Positions 2,211 through 12,976 of a DNA stretch of 64,000 bases are shown here, in pieces. The DNA is from Oscillospiraceae bacterium. Its GTDB lineage: Bacteria > Bacillota_A > Clostridia > Oscillospirales > CAG-272. The position numbers and the translations under genes are program-made. The notes under the pieces are model-generated. The model was not told the origin of the DNA, searched no databases, and saw nothing but the letters and a program-made list of their open reading frames with translations. Within the stretch, counting starts at the first letter, position 1. Each line of letters begins with the position of its first letter. Location: NCBI GenBank assembly GCA_015063445.1, contig SVUD01000003.1:1-64000 (forward strand), written 5' to 3'.

Positions 2211-3968
2211 CTACGGGATGTCGAGATCGTAGTATTTCTTTAAAACCTCAACCGCGCCGAGAACGTTTTCTCGGTAAGCATCTCTTGAAACGTCAAAATA
2301 TCCCGAATAATTATTATTTCCGCCGGCGGTAGCCGAGAATTCGCTACCATCCGGGTTTTTAATACCTAGAGCCACAAAGCTTGATGCCGGAATTTGCCCT
2401 GCCTGACCGATTTCCTCGGCTATATAATTTCTGTCGGGAATCATATTTATAGCTTTTCTGATCTCAGCCTCAGCCAAAGCTCTTTCATTTCCCGAAAGCT
2501 CGCTTGAGCGAGGAAGAATGCTTTTGTTGATATTCCAGGAGATATAATAGGTTCCTATTTGCCCCACTGTGAAGAACTCGTCGCCGTATTCGGTCTTTAA
2601 TGCTTTGATTTCATTTGTCGGTAGATTGTCTATAAACTGCCAGTCTCTGTTTTTGAAATTGGCGAGCATATTATTTCCGTCATCGGACAGGAAAAAGTTG
2701 ATTTTCGGCATTGTAACGGTATTTGCCGAGTGATGATTTTTATTTTTCACGAGAGTGATAAGGCTGTTATGATTCCACGCCTCCATAGTATAAGCGCCGT
2801 TTGAGATGAAGGTAGAGGAGTCAGCCGCCCAGGATTCGTTTTTGATAACGTCCTCTCGCACGGGGAAGAAGGTAGGAAATGCGAGAAGCTCATAGAAGTA
2901 CGGCACGTCAACCTCAAGCGTCACCGATAATGTTCTTTCGTCAAGAGCCGAAACGTTTAAATCTTCGTTTTTTCCACCGTAACCCCTTATAACTTCGAAC
3001 ATATAACCGTAATCTGCGCCAAGCGCGGGAGAAGCCGCCCTCTTCCATGCAAATTCAAAATCATGCGCCGTAACTCTTTTTCCGTCAGACCACGTCATAT
3101 TTTCACGGAGAGTGAAAACGTAAGTCACGCTTCCGTCAGCGTTTTGTACACCGAGAGGCAAGGCTTCAGCGGCGTCGGGAACGATAACGGCATTTCCCGT
3201 TTTATCTACGCTCCATTTAGTAAGTCCCGAGAAAAGATGCGAGAGCATAGTGTTGGAGTCGACCGTCGAGCTGAGTGCGGGATCAAGGGACTGCGGTTCA
3301 CTCGCGAGTGAAACAGAAATCGACTGTTTGCCCCCGTACGACGTGCCGGAGAAAAACTTTATTCCCAATGGACTCGAATAAAATCCCTCAAGCGATTTGT
3401 CCTTCATGTATAGGTCCGTGTAAAAATAAAGCGGCATAATGCAGCCCGTATCCATTATCATATCCTCGGCTAAATGCATAAGACGAAAGCGCTTATTTAC
3501 GTCTGTGCAGGTCTTGATTATAGCGATAAGTCTGTCGTAGGTTTCGCTCCACGTTCCTCCTTCAACAAATACGTCATATCCCTCATCTCTTAAGTCTAGC
3601 GAATATATAGAAACGTCCTTATGCCACCCTTTGCCAAACCCGATATCGTTATTTCCGGAGCTCGATACCCACATATCAAGAAACGATACGGGATCGGAGA
3701 AATCGGCAAGCCAGCCGTTTCTTGCTAAGGTATAATCTCCCGATTTGCGAGTGCTTAAAAAAGCGCCCCACTCCTGATTCGAAAGGGTAACTCTTATTCC
3801 TGCGGCGGCAAGGGCGCTTTGTATATATTCTCCTACTGCCTGATGGCTTTCCGAAGTGTTATATAAATACTCAAGCGTTGGCATTGAGTTTTCACTTCTT
3901 TTTCCGCACGAAGTGAAAGTAAAGATGACGTTAATCACAAAAAGCACCAAAGCTATCAGCTTTTTCAT
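2211..3968 (-). CDS. Oligopeptide-binding lipoprotein (OppA/SBP family 5), circularly permuted
   Basis: A 585-residue lipoprotein with signal peptide and lipobox ending at Cys21 (FTSC). The domain order is swapped relative to OppA. Residues 31-206 carry the segment normally at the C-terminus (TLEYLYNTSESH, SNQEWGAFLSTRKSGDY, ARNGWLADFSDPVSFLDMW, IMPLYFYTD). Residues 214-585 carry the segment normally at the N-terminus (SISVSLASEPQSLDPALSS, WSDGKRVTAHDFEFAWKR, VPYFYELLAFPTFFPV, SNGAYTMEAW). The chain ends at EVLKKYYDLDIP, just where a normal OppA would continue into PTLEYLYNTSE. No stop or frameshift breaks it, and the start has an AAGGAGC ribosome site. It lies downstream of oppF, 49 bases away, and presumably delivers peptides to OppBCDF. 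Family assignment is firm; retained activity is inference. Confidence 0.88.
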   Translation of the reverse strand: MKKLIALVLFVINVIFTFTSCGKRSENSMPTLEYLYNTSESHQAVGEYIQSALAAAGIRVTLSNQEWGAFLSTRKSGDYTLARNGWLADFSDPVSFLDMWVSSSGNNDIGFGKGWHKDVSIYSLDLRDEGYDVFVEGGTWSETYDRLIAIIKTCTDVNKRFRLMHLAEDMIMDTGCIMPLYFYTDLYMKDKSLEGFYSSPLGIKFFSGTSYGGKQSISVSLASEPQSLDPALSSTVDSNTMLSHLFSGLTKWSVDKTGNAVIVPDAAEALPLGVQNADGSVTYVFTLRENMTWSDGKRVTAHDFEFAWKRAASPALGADYGYMFEVIRGYGGKNEDLNVSALDERTLSVTLEVDVPYFYELLAFPTFFPVREDVIKNESWAADSSTFISNGAYTMEAWNHNSLITLVKNKNHHSANTVTMPKINFFLSDDGNNMLANFKNRDWQFIDNLPTNEIKALKTEYGDEFFTVGQIGTYYISWNINKSILPRSSELSGNERALAEAEIRKAINMIPDRNYIAEEIGQAGQIPASSFVALGIKNPDGSEFSATAGGNNNYSGYFDVSRDAYRENVLGAVEVLKKYYDLDIP

Positions 3969-4017
3969 TTTTTGCTCCTTCTTAGTTAAAATGGGTTAAA
4001 ATGTAAACCATTGTTTT

Positions 4018-5004
4018 CTAAATTGTTAATTCTTCCGCTCTGTGACAAGCAACAAAGTGGTCCTTGTAGAATTCTCTTAGTTTTGGCTTTTCCTCCTCGC
4101 ATATTTCTTTTGCCCAAGGACACCGCGTTCTGAACGGACAGCCGTCCGGCTTATTTACAGGGCTCGGTATTTCGCCTTCGAGCGCTATTCTCTTGCTTTT
4201 TGCCATAGCCTTTGGATCGGGAATGGGAATTGCTGATATCAGAGCCTTCGTATATGGGTGAAGAGGAATTTTGTATATCGAGTCGCTTTCCGCAAGCTCT
4301 ACTATCTCGCCAAGATACATAACAGCTATTCTGTCGCTTACGTGCCTTACCACGAGCAGATCGTGAGCAATAAATAAATAAGTGAGTCCGAGCCTGTATC
4401 GTAAGTCCTCAAACATATTTATTATTTGCGCTTGGATTGAAACGTCAAGAGCTGACACGGGCTCGTCACAAACTAAAAATTCGGGACCTTGCGCAAGCGC
4501 TCGGGCAATGCATATTCGCTGTCTTTGCCCTCCCGAAAATTCGTGGGCATAGCGTGAGGCATGCTCGCTGTTCAGACCTACCCTATCCATCAAGGAGAGT
4601 ACCTTCTCGCGTCTTTCCTTCGCGGTTTGATAAAGTCCGTGCAAATCAAGAGGCTCGGCAATAATATCCGCTACCGTCATTCTTGGATTCAGCGATGAAT
4701 ACGGATCCTGAAAGACGTAGGACGCCCGTTTTCTGAGCATCGCTATATCTTCCTTTGTTTTTATTGGATTTTTGCGGTAGATAACCTCGCCCGAGGTGGG
4801 CTTGTAAAGGTGTAGCAGCGTTCTGCCTGCGGTAGTTTTTCCCGAGCCGGATTCACCGACAAGCCCGAGCGTCTCTCCCTCGGCTATATGGAAAGATATA
4901 CCGTCAACTGCGGCAAGTGTCGTTTTTGAAAACGCTCTGTCCTTGACCTCAAAGTGTTTTTTGAGGTTACGTACCTCGATAAGCTTTTTTTCCTTTCTAC
5001 TCAC
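4018..5004 (-). CDS. oppF: Oligopeptide ABC transporter ATP-binding protein OppF
   Basis: A 328-residue ABC ATPase. Walker A is GESGSGKT (about residues 50-57), the signature is FSGGQRQR, Walker B ends VCDEPVSALD and the switch is IAHD. The C-terminal oligopeptide/dipeptide extension contains four conserved cysteines (CPFRTRCPWAKEIC ... ACH). In OppF-type subunits this extension is typical and in some relatives binds an iron-sulfur cluster. The start is a GTG that overlaps the oppD stop by eight bases, indicating translational coupling. Confidence 0.93.
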   Translation of the reverse strand: MSRKEKKLIEVRNLKKHFEVKDRAFSKTTLAAVDGISFHIAEGETLGLVGESGSGKTTAGRTLLHLYKPTSGEVIYRKNPIKTKEDIAMLRKRASYVFQDPYSSLNPRMTVADIIAEPLDLHGLYQTAKERREKVLSLMDRVGLNSEHASRYAHEFSGGQRQRICIARALAQGPEFLVCDEPVSALDVSIQAQIINMFEDLRYRLGLTYLFIAHDLLVVRHVSDRIAVMYLGEIVELAESDSIYKIPLHPYTKALISAIPIPDPKAMAKSKRIALEGEIPSPVNKPDGCPFRTRCPWAKEICEEEKPKLREFYKDHFVACHRAEELTI

Positions 5005-5998
5005 GGTGTCCTTCTCCGTTTGACCTTAAATATTCTTTTTTTTGATTCATCCAGCATCTTGCGGTGTGTCCTTCGCTGATTTTTACCTCATCTGCATTTT
5101 TTACCGCGCATATATTCATAGCTTCTCCGCAGCGCTCAGCAAAAGGACATCCCTCGGGAATCTCTCTTAAGTTTATAACGTTTCCCGGTATAGCCGAAAG
5201 CCGCTGCTTTACGTTTTCAGCCTTTGGAACAGAGCGTAAAAGCCCTTTTGTATATTCGTGTCTTGGATCATAGAAAATATCAGTAGCGCTTCCTTTTTCG
5301 GCAATTTCTCCCGCATACATAACTATAACCTCGTCGCACATTTTCGCAATAACACCGAGATCGTGCGTGATCATTATTATAGACATTCCGAGCTTTTTTT
5401 GCAATGAGAGCATAAGGTCGAGAATTGATGCCTGTATGGTTACGTCGAGAGCGGTAGTCGGCTCGTCGGCGATAAGAATATCAGGCTCTGTCGCGAGAGC
5501 CATAGCTATCATCACCCTTTGCCGCATTCCGCCCGAAAGCTCGAAGGGGTATTGTTTCATTCTTCGCTCGGTATCACTGATATTGACCATACGCAGTATT
5601 TCTGTGGCGCGCGTTCTTGCGGAGCGTTTTGTCGTATCGTTATGGATTAGAATTGCCTCGGTCAGCTGCTTTCCTACAGTATAGGTAGGGTTAAGCGAGG
5701 TCATAGGGTCTTGAAAAATCATTGAGATTCTGTTTCCGCGTATTTTGCGCATAAAATCTTCCGGAGCTCCGATAAGCTCCTCTCCCATTAGCCTTACCGA
5801 GCCGCTGACAACTCTTGCGCTTGGAGGCAGAAGACCCATTATCGAATAAGCCGTAACCGATTTTCCCGAGCCGGATTCTCCGACTATCCCCAAAACCTTT
5901 CCCGAGTCAAGATTAAATGATACGTTTCTAACCGCCTTTATCTCACCCTTTTCACTAAAAAAAGATGTGCTTAAATTATTTACCTCAAGAAGAGCCAT
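4997..5998 (-). CDS. oppD: Oligopeptide ABC transporter ATP-binding protein OppD
   Basis: A 333-residue ABC ATPase with Walker A GESGSGKS (residues 40-47), signature LSGGMRQR, Walker B LIADEPTTALD and ITHD switch. The C-terminal extension has the OppD-type cysteines (CPFAERCGEAMNIC ... ARC). The ATG at 5998 is preferred because it follows GGAAAGGAGAGAG; a longer frame would overlap oppC and add 17 residues without family support. It pairs with OppF to power peptide import. Confidence 0.93.
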   Translation of the reverse strand: MALLEVNNLSTSFFSEKGEIKAVRNVSFNLDSGKVLGIVGESGSGKSVTAYSIMGLLPPSARVVSGSVRLMGEELIGAPEDFMRKIRGNRISMIFQDPMTSLNPTYTVGKQLTEAILIHNDTTKRSARTRATEILRMVNISDTERRMKQYPFELSGGMRQRVMIAMALATEPDILIADEPTTALDVTIQASILDLMLSLQKKLGMSIIMITHDLGVIAKMCDEVIVMYAGEIAEKGSATDIFYDPRHEYTKGLLRSVPKAENVKQRLSAIPGNVINLREIPEGCPFAERCGEAMNICAVKNADEVKISEGHTARCWMNQKKEYLRSNGEGHRE

Positions 5999-6023
5999 AG
6001 CTCTCTCCTTTCCTTTATTATCA

Positions 6024-7076
6024 TTATGACAGCTTTGGATCAAAAGCATCTCTCAGCCCATCGCCGACAAGGTTCAGAGAAAGCACTATCACAGATATAA
6101 AAAGAGCGGGAATAACGAGTCTTTCGGGATATGAGCTTATTCCGTTTAAAGCCTCTGAGGCGAGAGAGCCGAGGGAGGGCATAGGCGCGTTGACTCCTAA
6201 CCCGAGAAATGAAAGATAGCTTTCCGTGAATATTGCGCTCGGAATTTGCAGAGCGGTCGAAATAAGAATAACGCCGATAGAGTTTGGTAAAAGATGCTTT
6301 TTTATTATCCATCCACTGCCGGCGCCGAAGCTTTTTGCGGCGAGAACGTATTCCTGCTTTTTTAATGACAGTATCTCCGCGCGCACAAGCCGTGCCATAG
6401 AAACCCAGTAGAAGAGAGCAAAAACTACAAATAAAGAGAAAACGTTCGTGCCTATCTTATCGAGAAATGCGATATTGGTGTTTTTCAGAGCGGCATTCAG
6501 CACTGAGGCGAGAAGTATGACCATAAGCATATCAGGAAGAGAATAGATAACGTCAACTATCCGCATTATAAAAAGATCCACAGCGCCGCCCTTGTATCCG
6601 CTGATAGCGCCAACCGTCAGCCCCACGATAAGCACGATAATGCTTGCAAAAAATCCAACCGCAAGCGAAATTCTCGCTCCGTGTATAACTCTTATGAAAT
6701 AATCTCTGCCTCGGCTGTCAGTTCCGAAAATATGCGGAAAGACGAACTCTCCCGCGTCTCTTTTTGCTTGTTCTGTTGTGCCGTATTCAAATGGAGCGAG
6801 ATTGGAGTATGAGGCATCAACAGGCTCGCCGAGAGTTATACCGAGCTGCTTATCGTAGCTGTACGGCCAGAAAAGCGGTATAAATATTGCGCTAAGCACT
6901 ATAATTATGATAACCGCAAGGGAAATAAGAGCGGTTTTGTTTTTAATAAAACGTCTGAGCCCGTCCTTGAAAAAGCTTGGCGCTTCCTCGTCTTTTTGCT
7001 CCGATATACGTTCTTTAACCTCAAGACGTGCGAAGGCGCACTCATAATTTTCAAATACAAGATCATTCTTTTCCAT
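6024..7076 (-). CDS. oppC: Oligopeptide ABC transporter permease OppC
   Basis: A 350-residue permease. It has a cytoplasmic N-terminus of about 45 residues, a first helix (ALISLAVIIIIVLSAIFIPLFW), a large extracytoplasmic loop containing FGTDSRGRDYFIRVIHGARISL, which is the classic OppC/DppC motif, and then five more helices. The coupling loop is AAKSFGAGSGWIIKKHLLPNS. It lies 36 bases downstream of oppB and ahead of oppD. Confidence 0.93.
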   Translation of the reverse strand: MEKNDLVFENYECAFARLEVKERISEQKDEEAPSFFKDGLRRFIKNKTALISLAVIIIIVLSAIFIPLFWPYSYDKQLGITLGEPVDASYSNLAPFEYGTTEQAKRDAGEFVFPHIFGTDSRGRDYFIRVIHGARISLAVGFFASIIVLIVGLTVGAISGYKGGAVDLFIMRIVDVIYSLPDMLMVILLASVLNAALKNTNIAFLDKIGTNVFSLFVVFALFYWVSMARLVRAEILSLKKQEYVLAAKSFGAGSGWIIKKHLLPNSIGVILISTALQIPSAIFTESYLSFLGLGVNAPMPSLGSLASEALNGISSYPERLVIPALFISVIVLSLNLVGDGLRDAFDPKLS

Positions 7077-7112: not shown

Positions 7113-8114
7113 TTACGATGATATTCTCGGGTCTGCGAGGCGGTAAAGCATATCTGAGAGCAGATTCATAAAAATTACAAGCACGGAAAGAACTATCGTA
7201 GTTCCCATAATCAGAGGATAGTCTCTGTTGCTTATGCTTCCGATGAAATCACGCCCAACACCGCCTACGGCAAAAATTCTTTCAACCACGAGCGAGCCCG
7301 TGATAATGTAAGCGAGCATAGGACCGAAATAGGTTATGATGGGAAGAAGCGAATTCTTCATTGCGTGGCGAAAAACTATACCAAAACGTGACACGCCCTT
7401 CGCCTTAGCGGTTCTTATATAGTCCTGGCCGAGAACGTCGAGCATAGAGGAGCGCGTAAGGCGTGTAATGTAAGCCAACGGATAAAGAGAAAGAGTAAGA
7501 GTTGGCAAAATGAACCCGCGTATACCCGTTTGTGCGCTTAGTGATGCAGGAAACCAACCAAGCCTTATTGAAAAAACAGTCAGAAGAATAGTTCCCATTA
7601 TGAACGACGGCATAGAAACGAGAGCGGTCGTGATTACCATTATCACCCTATCCGTGTGTGAATTTTTCTTAACGGCTGCCAAAGCGCCGAGAGCTACTCC
7701 TATTATGAGAGCGGCGAGAGCGGCAAAAATTCCGAGCCTTGCCGAAACCGCCAGACCGTCAAATATTATTTCGGTAGTATCTCGTCCCTTTTGCTTAAGC
7801 GAAGGTCCAAAATCAAATTTAATAAATACGTCCCTCAAATACGTAAGATACTGAACTATAATCGGCTTGTCAAGTCCGTATTTTTCTTGCAAGGCCGCCT
7901 CTGCCTCGGGGGAAAGAGCCTTTTCGGCTTGAAACGGTCCGCCGGGGATTGCGTGCATTGCGAAAAAGGTTATCGTTATAACAGCAAAAACTGTTAAAAG
8001 GGATAGAAAAATACGTCTTAAGGCATACTTCATTTCCTTTGATTTTATCACCGCTATACCGAGATCTTTAAATTGCTTTATATTGATTTTTTTAACTTCT
8101 TCATTATCGCTCAT
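7113..8114 (-). CDS. oppB: Oligopeptide ABC transporter permease OppB, first gene of the operon
   Basis: A 333-residue permease with a first helix after a 36-residue cytoplasmic lead, the OppB motif AIPGGPFQAEKALSPEAEAALQEKYGLDKP and the coupling loop RTAKAKGVSRFGIVFRHAMKNSL. It ends with a DMLYRLADPRIS-type tail, normal for OppB. I chose the ATG at 8114, behind AGGTGG; a longer frame runs 49 residues back into the terminator of the upstream gene and lacks family character. The downstream order is oppC-D-F-A. A promoter must lie in the 100 bases upstream, but I see no confident one. Confidence 0.92.
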   Translation of the reverse strand: MSDNEEVKKINIKQFKDLGIAVIKSKEMKYALRRIFLSLLTVFAVITITFFAMHAIPGGPFQAEKALSPEAEAALQEKYGLDKPIIVQYLTYLRDVFIKFDFGPSLKQKGRDTTEIIFDGLAVSARLGIFAALAALIIGVALGALAAVKKNSHTDRVIMVITTALVSMPSFIMGTILLTVFSIRLGWFPASLSAQTGIRGFILPTLTLSLYPLAYITRLTRSSMLDVLGQDYIRTAKAKGVSRFGIVFRHAMKNSLLPIITYFGPMLAYIITGSLVVERIFAVGGVGRDFIGSISNRDYPLIMGTTIVLSVLVIFMNLLSDMLYRLADPRISS

Positions 8115-8169
8115 AAATCCACCTACGACATTAAAAAAATGTAATATGTAAACAATAATTTTCAAAATC

Positions 8170-8213
8170 GAAGAAAAATCTCCGTCTCGGCTGTAGCAAG
8201 ACGGAGATTTTAA
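8170..8213 (-). terminator. Terminator between the HAD hydrolase gene and oppB
   Basis: A 13-base perfect stem (AAAATCTCCGTCT at 8175-8187 with its complement at 8199-8211) is followed on the minus strand by a TTCTTCG tail. It lies immediately after the HAD stop codon. Confidence 0.8.
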
Positions 8214-8214
8214 G

Positions 8215-8847
8215 TTAGGGAAGACTTTTAATAAAACTGTAAAGCCTTTTTGCGTTCCCATCGAAAAGATATGAAGTAATTCCGAATTTTTCAGCTCCGC
8301 TTACGTTCATAGCATTGTCATCGACAAATAAGGTTTTACATGGTGTCAGCGCGAATTTTGACGTTATATGGCGGAAGATATCCTCCGATGGCTTGACGTA
8401 TCCCGCCGTAGCGGAGAATACACACCCGTCAAATAAGGAAAGTATAGGTATTTGGTCGCTGTGGCGCGCAAAATATTCCGAGATGTTTGAAAGAAGGTAT
8501 ATCCCGAAGCCTTTTTCACGGCAGAGAGCTATAACCTCTCTCATACCTTCAATTTCGGGCAGATTGTATATCCAGTTGTAGTATATCTTTTCACAAGCTT
8601 CGTGTAAGCGCTCCGGAATTTTTGCTTTAACGTCGGATAAAAGCTCCTCGTCGCCGATAGTCCCCGCGTCAAGCTTGTCCCAGTAATATCTTGAGAAAAG
8701 TGTGTTGGATAAAAGCCTTACGTCGCCTTTATCGGAAAGGTATTTGCCGCACATATATTCGGGATCGAATTTTACGAGAACCTGTCCGAAGTCGAATATC
8801 ACGTCGGTTATTTTTATGTCCGTGCCGAACAAATTTTTTGAATTCAT
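8215..8847 (-). CDS. HAD-superfamily hydrolase, YihX-like
   Basis: A 210-residue HAD phosphatase-like protein. Motif I is DFGQVLVKFD, with Gly where many HAD phosphatases have the second Asp, as in the YihX/epoxide-hydrolase N-domain group. Motif II is LLSN, motif III is the lysine in GYVKPSEDIF and motif IV is FVDDNAMN. A helical cap lies at about residues 25-100. In the YihX group the substrates are small sugar phosphates; the substrate here is unknown. The ATG at 8847 follows GAGGGA; an ATG at 8868 is possible. It stands alone on the minus strand, divergent from the rnf operon. Confidence 0.8.
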   Translation of the reverse strand: MNSKNLFGTDIKITDVIFDFGQVLVKFDPEYMCGKYLSDKGDVRLLSNTLFSRYYWDKLDAGTIGDEELLSDVKAKIPERLHEACEKIYYNWIYNLPEIEGMREVIALCREKGFGIYLLSNISEYFARHSDQIPILSLFDGCVFSATAGYVKPSEDIFRHITSKFALTPCKTLFVDDNAMNVSGAEKFGITSYLFDGNAKRLYSFIKSLP

Positions 8848-8918
8848 GTGTTTTTCCCTCGTTTTCATTATGGCGCGCTTCGGGATTTTTATGCATCCTG
8901 CCGAGCCTTTGCGAGTAT

Positions 8919-8948
8919 ATTTTAGCATCGGTACGTTTTGAAAGTCAA
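8919..8948 (-). promoter_or_regulatory. Predicted promoter of the HAD gene
   Basis: Read on the minus strand: TTGACT (8943-8948), 18 bases, TAAAAT (8919-8924), about 70 bases upstream of the HAD start. Confidence 0.45.
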
Positions 8949-9081
8949 TAGCCAACGGATAATTTTGAAGTATCAAAAGACTTCTTTCGGTCAACAATAT
9001 AGTATAATTTGGAGCAAAATGGATTTTGTGGTTAAAAAGTTCAATTTTTGGCGGTTGCTATTGGTGAAATTGCAACATTAA

Positions 9082-9131
9082 TTGTTAATAAATTAACTTT
9101 TCTTGACAATTATTACAATCGCCTATATAAT
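9082..9131 (+). promoter_or_regulatory. rnf promoter with a Rex-like operator
   Basis: A consensus sigma-A promoter: TTGACA at 9103-9108, a 17-base spacer and TATAAT at 9126-9131. Directly upstream, at 9082-9099, is TTGTTAATAAATTAACTT, which matches 12 of the 14 defined bases of the clostridial Rex operator TTGTTAA-N4-TTAACAA. Rex senses NADH/NAD+, and Rnf reduces NAD+ with ferredoxin, so control by Rex would make sense; this is inference. The first start codon is at 9188. Confidence 0.7.
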
Positions 9132-10522: not shown

Positions 10523-11453
10523 GCTTCATATAGACGTATCTCCTCATATAGGAACGGCGAGAAAAACGACTCACATCATGCTCGATGTTATTATAGCGCT
10601 CCTTCCGGCGCTCGTTGCGGGCTGCATAATTTTCGGTATGCGCTCTCTTCTCGTATGCGCGGTAACCGTTTCCTTTGCGGTTGCTTCTGAGTTTCTTTTC
10701 TGCGTTATCACCAAAAGACCTCATACCGTAGGTGACTTGAGCTCTGTTGTAACAGGACTTTTGTTGGGACTTAATCTTCCCGTAACAGCGCCTCTCTGGC
10801 AGTGCGCCGTAGGCTCTGTTTTCGCTATAATCGTGGTTAAATGTCTGTTTGGCGGAATCGGTCAGAATTTTGCCAACCCCGCCATAACCGCGAGAGTATT
10901 CCTTCTTATATCATTTGCGGGAACTCTCGGCGGCGGAGCAGTACCAAAGGTAGCGTCAAACCCCGATCTTGTTTCGGGAGCAACGCCTCTTGCGGTTATC
11001 TCAAAGGGCGGTATTCTTCCAAGCCTTAAGGATATGTTCTTGGGTATGAGAGGCGGAGCGATCGGTGAGACGTGCGCTGTCGCTCTCATAGCAGGATTTA
11101 TATACCTCGTCGTGAGAAAGGTAATATACTTCGAAACACCCCTTATATACGTAGCGACGGTATTTCTTCTTTCGCTTATAGCGTATAACGACTTTTCTAT
11201 GGCTCTTTATCAGGTTCTTTCGGGCGGTCTTATTCTCGGCGCTGTCTTTATGATAACCGATTATTCAACGACGCCTATAACGAGAAAGGGAAAAATGATA
11301 TTCGCGTTGGGATGCGGACTCATAACCTTCCTCATCAGATACTTCGGCTCTTACCCCGAGGGAGTATCGTTTGCGATACTTATTATGAATATTCTTTCGC
11401 CTTATATCGAAATCTGGACGAGAAACCGTCCCTTCGGAGGTGAGATAAAATGA
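10512..11453 (+). CDS. rnfD: Rnf complex subunit RnfD
   Basis: A 313-residue integral membrane subunit with 8-9 helices. The motif DLVSGATPLAVI contains the threonine to which ApbE attaches FMN by a phosphoester bond in RnfD/NqrB proteins. The start (MENKLHIDVSPH) is inside the rnfC 3' end behind AAAGGAGG. The C-terminus (YIEIWTRNRPFG) is typical for the family. It overlaps rnfG by four bases. Confidence 0.95.
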   Translation: MENKLHIDVSPHIGTARKTTHIMLDVIIALLPALVAGCIIFGMRSLLVCAVTVSFAVASEFLFCVITKRPHTVGDLSSVVTGLLLGLNLPVTAPLWQCAVGSVFAIIVVKCLFGGIGQNFANPAITARVFLLISFAGTLGGGAVPKVASNPDLVSGATPLAVISKGGILPSLKDMFLGMRGGAIGETCAVALIAGFIYLVVRKVIYFETPLIYVATVFLLSLIAYNDFSMALYQVLSGGLILGAVFMITDYSTTPITRKGKMIFALGCGLITFLIRYFGSYPEGVSFAILIMNILSPYIEIWTRNRPFGGEIK

Positions 11454-12976
11454 GTAAGATCTTTAAGAAAAGCAATATAATGCCTGTCATCGTTCTTACA
11501 GCTATATGTCTTATTATTGCGGCAGTTCTGGGCGTTGCGAATATGTTCACCGAGGACACTATAAAGAAGAACGAATCGGATAAGGTATACAGCTCGCTTA
11601 AGGTAGTAATAGACGGAAGCTTCGAGCCTATGGATAAGCCTGAGGGAACACCGAGCAGCGTCGTTGATATGTATAAGGTCAGCGATGATGACGGAAAGCT
11701 TAAGGGCTATGCGATAACAATGTCGGTTCAGGGCTATGCGAGCGAAATCTCCCTTACCGTCGGTGTTGACAAGGACGGAAACGTAACAAAAGCCGTCGTT
11801 ACGAGTCAGGCTGAGTCGCACGGTAAAGCGGGAATGGCTAATTACACCGATAACTTCACGGGCGTTTCAAAGGATAAGGTTGAGAGCGTTGATACCTTCT
11901 CCGGCGCAACGGTTTCATCCACCGCTATCAAGAACGCCATAGTTACGGCGGTTAAGGTCGTAACGGGTACCGCGGAAGAGGAAAAGCTTCCGAGAGAGGA
12001 TTCCGAGATAATCGCTCTTGCAAAGGCGCTTGTCGGAAAGAACGTTGAATTTACCGACGTAACGCCCGAGGAGATGAAGTACGCAAAGCGTATTTACAAG
12101 GCTGGTGATGAGGGCTACGTTGCTTATACCCTCGTTATCAGCGGATACGGAACTCCCGAAACAGAAACTCTTATTTTCGTCGGCAGTGACGGAACAATTA
12201 AGGATTACAATAAGCTTATTTGGAAAACAAGTGACGCTATGTACGGCTACGTTCCACCGTCGGACGACGTAGTAAATGCATTCTACGAAACTCTTATAGG
12301 AAAGAAAACGAGCGAACTTTCGGCACTTAATCCCGAGGACCTCGTATCTAACGCAACGAATACGTCAACCAAGCTCCGTGACGCTCTCGTTGAGGCAATG
12401 GGCAAAATAGACGTATTCCTCGCTAACGATAAGCTTCTTTCCGAGGCTGAGATAAAGGCTACCGCTAAGGCTATGATAGGTAAGGACGTTGAATTTACCG
12501 ACGTAACGCCCGATGACCTCGAGTACGTAAAGCGTATATACAAGGCAGGTAACGAGGGTTATGCGGTATACGCTATCGTTATGAGCAGATACGGAACTCC
12601 GGAAACCGAAACCCTTATGCACGTAGGCAACGACGGAAAAATAAAAAGTATCAAAAAACTTATCTGGAAAACCAGTGACGCTATGTACGGCTACGTTCCG
12701 CCGACGTCGGACGTCGTAGACGTATTCTACGATAAGGTAGTGGGAATGGATAAGGAGGCTCTCGCTCTTATCAAAAATGCGGACCTCGTATCCAACGCGA
12801 CTAACACATCTACCTCGCTTCGCTATGCGTTATACGAGGGACTCGACGCGGTTGAACAGATAGAATCGGGTAATACACCGAAGATTATAGGTATAGTATT
12901 GATTATAGCCGTGGTTCTTTTGACTGTGGCTTATAAGGTAGTTCCCATGATTATTAAAAGGAGGAAGAACGGATGA
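11450..12976 (+). CDS. rnfG: Rnf complex subunit RnfG, enlarged by two FMN-binding-like repeats
   Basis: A 508-residue protein, against about 180-220 for ordinary RnfG. Residues 1-35 form the N-terminal membrane anchor. Residues 45-170 are a normal FMN-binding domain with the flavinylation motif SGAT (Thr154). Two tandem modules follow, about 186-315 and 335-465, very alike (VEFTDVTP, KRIYKAG, YGTPETETL, KLIWKTSDAMYGYVPP, DLVSNATNTST). They look like degenerate FMN-binding domains in which SGAT has become SNAT (Thr303, Thr451). A second membrane helix lies at 479-500, with a basic tail (KRRKNG) placing the C-terminus inside. The near-identity of the modules at DNA level suggests a recent internal duplication. 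Whether the extra modules carry flavin is unknown. Confidence 0.9.
   Translation: MSKIFKKSNIMPVIVLTAICLIIAAVLGVANMFTEDTIKKNESDKVYSSLKVVIDGSFEPMDKPEGTPSSVVDMYKVSDDDGKLKGYAITMSVQGYASEISLTVGVDKDGNVTKAVVTSQAESHGKAGMANYTDNFTGVSKDKVESVDTFSGATVSSTAIKNAIVTAVKVVTGTAEEEKLPREDSEIIALAKALVGKNVEFTDVTPEEMKYAKRIYKAGDEGYVAYTLVISGYGTPETETLIFVGSDGTIKDYNKLIWKTSDAMYGYVPPSDDVVNAFYETLIGKKTSELSALNPEDLVSNATNTSTKLRDALVEAMGKIDVFLANDKLLSEAEIKATAKAMIGKDVEFTDVTPDDLEYVKRIYKAGNEGYAVYAIVMSRYGTPETETLMHVGNDGKIKSIKKLIWKTSDAMYGYVPPTSDVVDVFYDKVVGMDKEALALIKNADLVSNATNTSTSLRYALYEGLDAVEQIESGNTPKIIGIVLIIAVVLLTVAYKVVPMIIKRRKNG

Follow-up and report, generated by a model that had tools for sequence, protein, structure and literature searches.

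The window considered here, that is, the whole stretch of 64,000 nucleotides (nt) taken from positions 1 to 64,000 of contig SVUD01000003.1 (assembly GCA_015063445.1, Oscillospiraceae bacterium), carries at 2211-3968, on the minus strand, an open reading frame (ORF) for a family-5 peptide-binding lipoprotein in which the two main segments are swapped. The ORF starts with ATG, encodes 585 amino acids without internal stop codons and is preceded, 6 nt 5' of the ATG, by a Shine-Dalgarno-like AGGAG read in the sequence (3975..3979; this and the following features are all on the minus strand). The chain begins with a signal peptide, a lipobox (Cys21) and a short linker (residues 1-30; 3879..3968). 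Next comes the segment that is C-terminal in normal OppA (residues 31-206; 3351..3878), then a joint at which the former C-terminus runs into the former N-terminus (residues 207-213; 3330..3350, delimited from alignments and an AlphaFold model) and finally the N-terminal segment of normal OppA (residues 214-585; 2214..3329). Upstream lie, according to Pfam, the permease genes oppB (7113..8261) and oppC (6024..7076) and the ATPase genes oppD (4997..6049) and oppF (4018..5004), the latter 49 nt from the permuted gene. In the 7 ORFs that lie between positions 311 and 8261 of the window, Pfam found no second binding protein.

A reading of the letters alone (hereafter the sequence-only reading) had proposed the order lipobox, C-terminal segment, N-terminal segment. 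This order is borne out by alignment to solved proteins, by profile matches and by relatives, and the proposed borders at residues 31-206 and 214-585 hold on the same alignments. With DppE, residues 212-550 of the window protein (P0001 in the residue mapping) align to DppE 19-339, residues 24-111 to DppE 360-448 and residues 141-203 to DppE 450-512 (E-value 1.3e-64 for the whole). Bacillus OppA and the OppA chain 1b05 give the same swapped alignment. The Pfam profile PF00496 (SBP_bac_5) matches in two stretches (199.6 bits for a cut-off of 32.4), the better one covering 2-256 of 368 profile positions, and the NCBIfam OppA profile PRK15104 also matches in two stretches, at 189.6 bits, short of its equivalog cut-off of 947. 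For the normal-order relative P0034, each profile matches in one stretch, PRK15104 again remaining below the equivalog cut-off. Hence, alignments and profiles show that the window protein lacks the normal segment order that goes with membership of SBP_bac_5 and cluster C; it matches family 5 and not the cluster B sugar-binding proteins represented by TpMglB-2. It has the marks of a natural permutant, since both segments are homologous to one protein, the old end is joined to the old start, the new termini lie elsewhere and the arrangement recurs.

Recurrence was followed in similarity-ranked lists of matches, which are no census. Two protein searches, with 120 of 5735 and 120 of 7997 matches listed, gave 229 distinct proteins, the window protein included. 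Among these, the window order (type A) occurs in 132, the normal one in 76 and a second permuted order (type B) in 18, while 3 are odd. The same order in 131 further listed proteins places that of the window protein beyond chance. Type B chains begin with a piece starting near P0001 residue 498, followed by the C-terminal segment and then the remainder. A third permuted order, type C, has its N-terminus within the C-terminal segment, the first part of which has moved to the end of the chain; when a type C gene was used as query, all 120 matches listed (of 4885, the query's own protein included) were type C, bringing the collection to 349 proteins. Type A proteins and loci collapse to 55 at 85% identity, and the 51 other type A proteins that were aligned are 57-82% identical. 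In public records, the type A proteins P0078 and P0079 are named "peptide ABC transporter substrate-binding protein" and P0018 is a "hypothetical protein".

Genomes were surveyed as well. When genomes of one order were drawn evenly, 20/295 had a relative at an E-value up to 1e-75, which was of type A in 8 of them, of type B in 2, of type C in 3 and normal in 7, and in a class sample 21/391 matched (1 type A, which was G001 again, 2 type C and 18 normal, one of them already seen), with a cut-off that is biased towards type A, whose match is unbroken. In the class of G005, 1/197 genomes matched, namely G005 itself, and in the order of G003, 7/197 matched at E-values up to 1e-100, all 7 previously found. 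The distant loci L008-L079 showed no permuted order wherever both segments were found. The search for the same order thus finds it again in relatives from Clostridia records, together with two additional permuted arrangements of the orthologous gene. Some peculiarities were noted among these relatives. The type C gene of L105 (genome G103) has an in-frame stop codon, indicating either a broken gene or an assembly error. Genome G003 holds two type B copies (L082 and L087, the first being L003). The signal peptides of P0175, L006 and L124 (two normal-order, one type C) seem by eye to be without the lipobox cysteine, a residue that is invariant in the type A alignment (Cys21, 52 proteins) and in that of type B.

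The genomic position of the gene is also shared. In 21/25 loci the binding protein directly follows oppB-C-D-F; its order is type A in 8 of these, type B in 2, type C in 4 and normal in 7. In the normal-order locus L007, oppD and oppF are seen and the contig ends upstream, and no opp genes were found in the DNA examined at the type B loci L003-L005 (3.2 kb upstream for L003). Because all four orders occupy the same slot after oppB-C-D-F, the order most likely changed in an orthologous gene, in place.

The sites at which the chain has been opened were mapped by alignment and from the junctions. In OppA numbering, the opening lies at residue 357/359 for type A, close to 283/284 for type B and between residues 439 and 443 for type C. 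On the window protein, the cut site of type C relatives corresponds to a loop at residues about 114-138 (3555..3629) and that of type B relatives to a loop at residues about 487-497 (2478..2510). Domain III of OppA spans residues 270-486 according to PMC6305025, so that all three sites, as mapped from sequence, are inside domain III. An opening between the two lobes, as the sequence-only reading had it, is therefore wrong for the window protein, whose cut at 357/359 lies within that domain. The joint between the old ends is short and varies in length by one residue (26 of 52 rows). AlphaFold predicts for type A one confident fold, with a predicted local distance difference test score (pLDDT) of 89.7 and a predicted template modelling score (pTM) of 0.85; around the joint, residue blocks 201-210 and 211-220 reach pLDDT 93 and 94. 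Residues 211-585 of the model match OppA by structural alignment, the rows produced by VIA-align covering mainly 211-585. Foldseek and VIA-align follow chain order, which puts the placement of residues 31-206 outside their reach. Whole-chain prediction is thus compatible with a single three-domain bilobed fold, by structural alignment for 211-585 and by model confidence for 31-206. Finally, the C-terminal segment carries the ligand-type residues H42, R74, R83, W86 and D89, the last of which corresponds to the Asp for the amino end of the peptide. These residues align to OppA 371, 404, 413, 416 and 419 and are invariant in 52 type A sequences. The ratio of nonsynonymous to synonymous substitution rates (dN/dS) among type A relatives is far below 1, so type A genes are under purifying selection.

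To count the events, trees were built from blocks that had been un-permuted. The ORFs of the loci and the set of 229 proteins supplied 292 rows, all distinct sequences having one of the four complete orders; excluded were the 3 odd proteins, ORFs in which a block was missing, and P0230-P0349. Clustering at 85% identity within an order left 125 rows, of which 120 were used (with 12/17 distant outgroup rows), and hand-picked subsets of 58 and 40 rows served for a mixture model and for bootstraps, respectively. In the 120-row tree, rooted on distant normal-order proteins, several normal-order lineages branch first, type C is one clade with a support of 100, type A is one group enclosing the normal rows L120 and L121, and type B requires four changes, of which well-supported branches impose two. 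In the 58-row tree, L121 leaves type A and L120 stays inside; the approximately unbiased (AU) test does not reject a single type A clade (p 0.81), and the tree with this constraint is in fact better. All type B rows as one clade are weakly rejected (AU p 0.032, 58 rows), and type B minus P0071 is not (AU 0.67). In the 40-row tree, P0071 and L097 group with the normal-order P0034, P0036, P0062 and P0074 (99/97), 7/11 type B rows make up a clade of their own (98/98), the position of P0051/P0095 is not resolved, and type B is one clade in 0/200 bootstrap trees. The joints agree with this tree: that of P0071 and L097 reads CTVP(S/T)GSSISV and the end of P0034 is CTVEG, whereas the remaining type B joints shown have (T/S/A)TV-x-G and then an acidic residue ahead of the strand. 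The joints of some type A and type B proteins also look alike in sequence. The existence of three permuted orders is certain. Type B probably has two origins, the normal order is basal on these trees, and types A and C are each compatible with one origin. Four events (A once, B twice, C once) are best supported and four or more are likely; in these trees, gain and reversal are not separable case by case.

The explanation that we favor, with a probability of about 0.9, is that the gene encodes an in-place circularly permuted binding protein of the OppBCDF importer, which would keep the family-5 fold and has been re-cut repeatedly. The gene would thus give a lipid-anchored peptide-binding protein. 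Its old C- and N-termini would have become the short internal joint and its new termini would sit in a domain III loop, the permuted chain folding as an ordinary cluster C protein. The free amino end of the peptide would be bound by the usual Asp and the peptide delivered to OppBC, with a lipid anchor moved from domain I to domain III. The proposal of the sequence-only reading that this is a functional, naturally permuted OppA-type protein is accordingly supported by relatives, operon context, selection among type A genes and a confident model. That the order reflects a misassembly, or a broken pseudogene that reads through by chance, can practically be dismissed: the order recurs in the 51 other aligned proteins and, in the survey within one taxonomic order, in 8 of the 20 genomes with a match, dN/dS is far below 1 for type A, and an intact oppBCDF lies upstream. 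Very improbable too is domain shuffling, in which the C-terminal segment would come from another gene for a substrate-binding protein (SBP). Such an origin is considered for the permuted part of TpMglB-2 in PMC4990184, but here the two segments find their matches in the same normal-order proteins, and at comparable identity, for instance 65% and 62% with P0034. Termini in domain III could alter hinge dynamics, and the protein could then be a peptide sensor or sink with altered lobe motion that has lost its transport role. We regard this as unlikely, given that the gene directly follows oppBCDF as the sole binding protein among the ORFs given to Pfam, that the orthologous slot is held in relatives and that the ligand-type residues are invariant.

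Several points weigh against the favored explanation. Support is computational throughout, from sequences and models. Residues 31-206 are placed in the fold by pTM and local confidence, not by superposition, and the type B AlphaFold model, made from 19 close sequences, is poor (pLDDT 53.6, pTM 0.39). Silent sites are saturated in 8/8 pairs of the window gene with other type A genes, so that dN/dS gives no value for the window gene itself. With normal rows inside clade A, type A could have arisen twice or reverted, and the second origin of type B rests on p 0.03, bootstraps and one joint. Two chains with extra segments, P0002 and P0052, look like real recombinants or chimeric contigs, and an intact tandem N-C-N-C chain, the full duplication intermediate, is absent among the 349 listed proteins.

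These last points bear on the route. The most likely one, held as reasonably probable, would be in-frame tandem duplication with subsequent trimming, to which recombination among alleles of different order may have contributed. Three partly redundant chains, each on a single contig, are known: P0002 (N-C-N'), P0022 (N'-C-C'-N') and P0052 (C'-N-C). The 97% internal repeat of P0022 indicates that in-frame duplication can occur here, unless its contig is wrong. P0002 and P0052 were dropped as duplication intermediates, because segment comparison shows them to be mosaics, P0002 of a normal-like front with a type B-like rest and P0052 of a type C-like front with a normal-like rest. The duplication origin suggested by the sequence-only reading stays plausible, its full intermediate being missing from the listed proteins. 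Cut-and-paste of a segment, or fission and re-fusion of half genes, is a possible but less probable route. The missing intermediate speaks for it, as does a half-length SBP ORF behind the type B gene in L144 (about 8634-9083), which holds only the C-terminal half of a distant SBP, at 27% identity; the partly redundant chains speak against it, with the reservation that P0002 and P0052 may be chimeras. At 26% to the query, this half SBP is not a recent duplicate. Elsewhere in the flanks of the 25 loci and the window, no duplicate remnants were found (E-values up to 0.5), which favors neither route. Tentatively, the binding-protein gene after oppBCDF may be a permutation hotspot, where three permissive loops of domain III, selection for the shift of the anchor from domain I to III and recombination between alleles yield new orders.

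Apart from the permuted gene, positions 311-1824 of the window (minus strand), downstream of it, encode an OAD_beta protein (sodium-pumping decarboxylase beta subunit) and a small protein that matches OAD_gamma below threshold. At 11450-12976, on the plus strand, a 508-amino-acid ORF contains a stretch that by eye occurs twice (TDVTPEEMKYAKRIYKAG / TDVTPDDLEYVKRIYKAG); the genes ahead of it are presumably Rnf-like.

In both of its segments, the window protein resembles OppA and DppE (cluster C, family 5, PF00496) in sequence, and it shares with them the ligand-type residues, the lipoprotein signal and the opp operon. It differs in that the three solved relatives aligned have the normal segment order, whereas its own is swapped and its lipid anchor would sit on domain III. 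We found no permuted family-5 binding protein in the open literature, searched by titles and abstract starts, with subscription papers and preprints outside the scope. This agrees with the sequence-only reading, according to which no natural circular permutant is known to be described in this family; another SBP family has one. PMC4990184 describes TpMglB-2 of Treponema pallidum (Type Ic, cluster Bc), a glucose binder, as a natural circular permutant with same-order relatives in Gram-positives. Like the window protein, it is a tethered ATP-binding cassette (ABC) binding protein, but it belongs to cluster B, with one permuted order described there, whereas the present family belongs to cluster C, sits in a peptide operon and has three. 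Natural permutation was therefore already known among SBPs, and its recurrence is what is unusual here. The general model of permutation by duplication, as given in PMC3320104, predicts fused and half-trimmed forms and has DNA methyltransferases and saposin/swaposin as examples. Partly duplicated intermediates belong to that model and have doubtful counterparts in our family, which differs further in that a single orthologue, always in the same operon slot, has been re-ordered several times.

Since one orthologue in one operon slot shows four orders, these related bacteria lend themselves to a comparison of the causes of permutation (duplication, recombination) and of its consequences for anchor position, lobe motion and docking. 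If the gene is a hotspot, the shift of the anchor would alter how the tethered protein meets OppBC. Profile and structure searches bound to chain order split such proteins or match them in part only, and family-5 binders have natural permutation sites that could serve in protein engineering.
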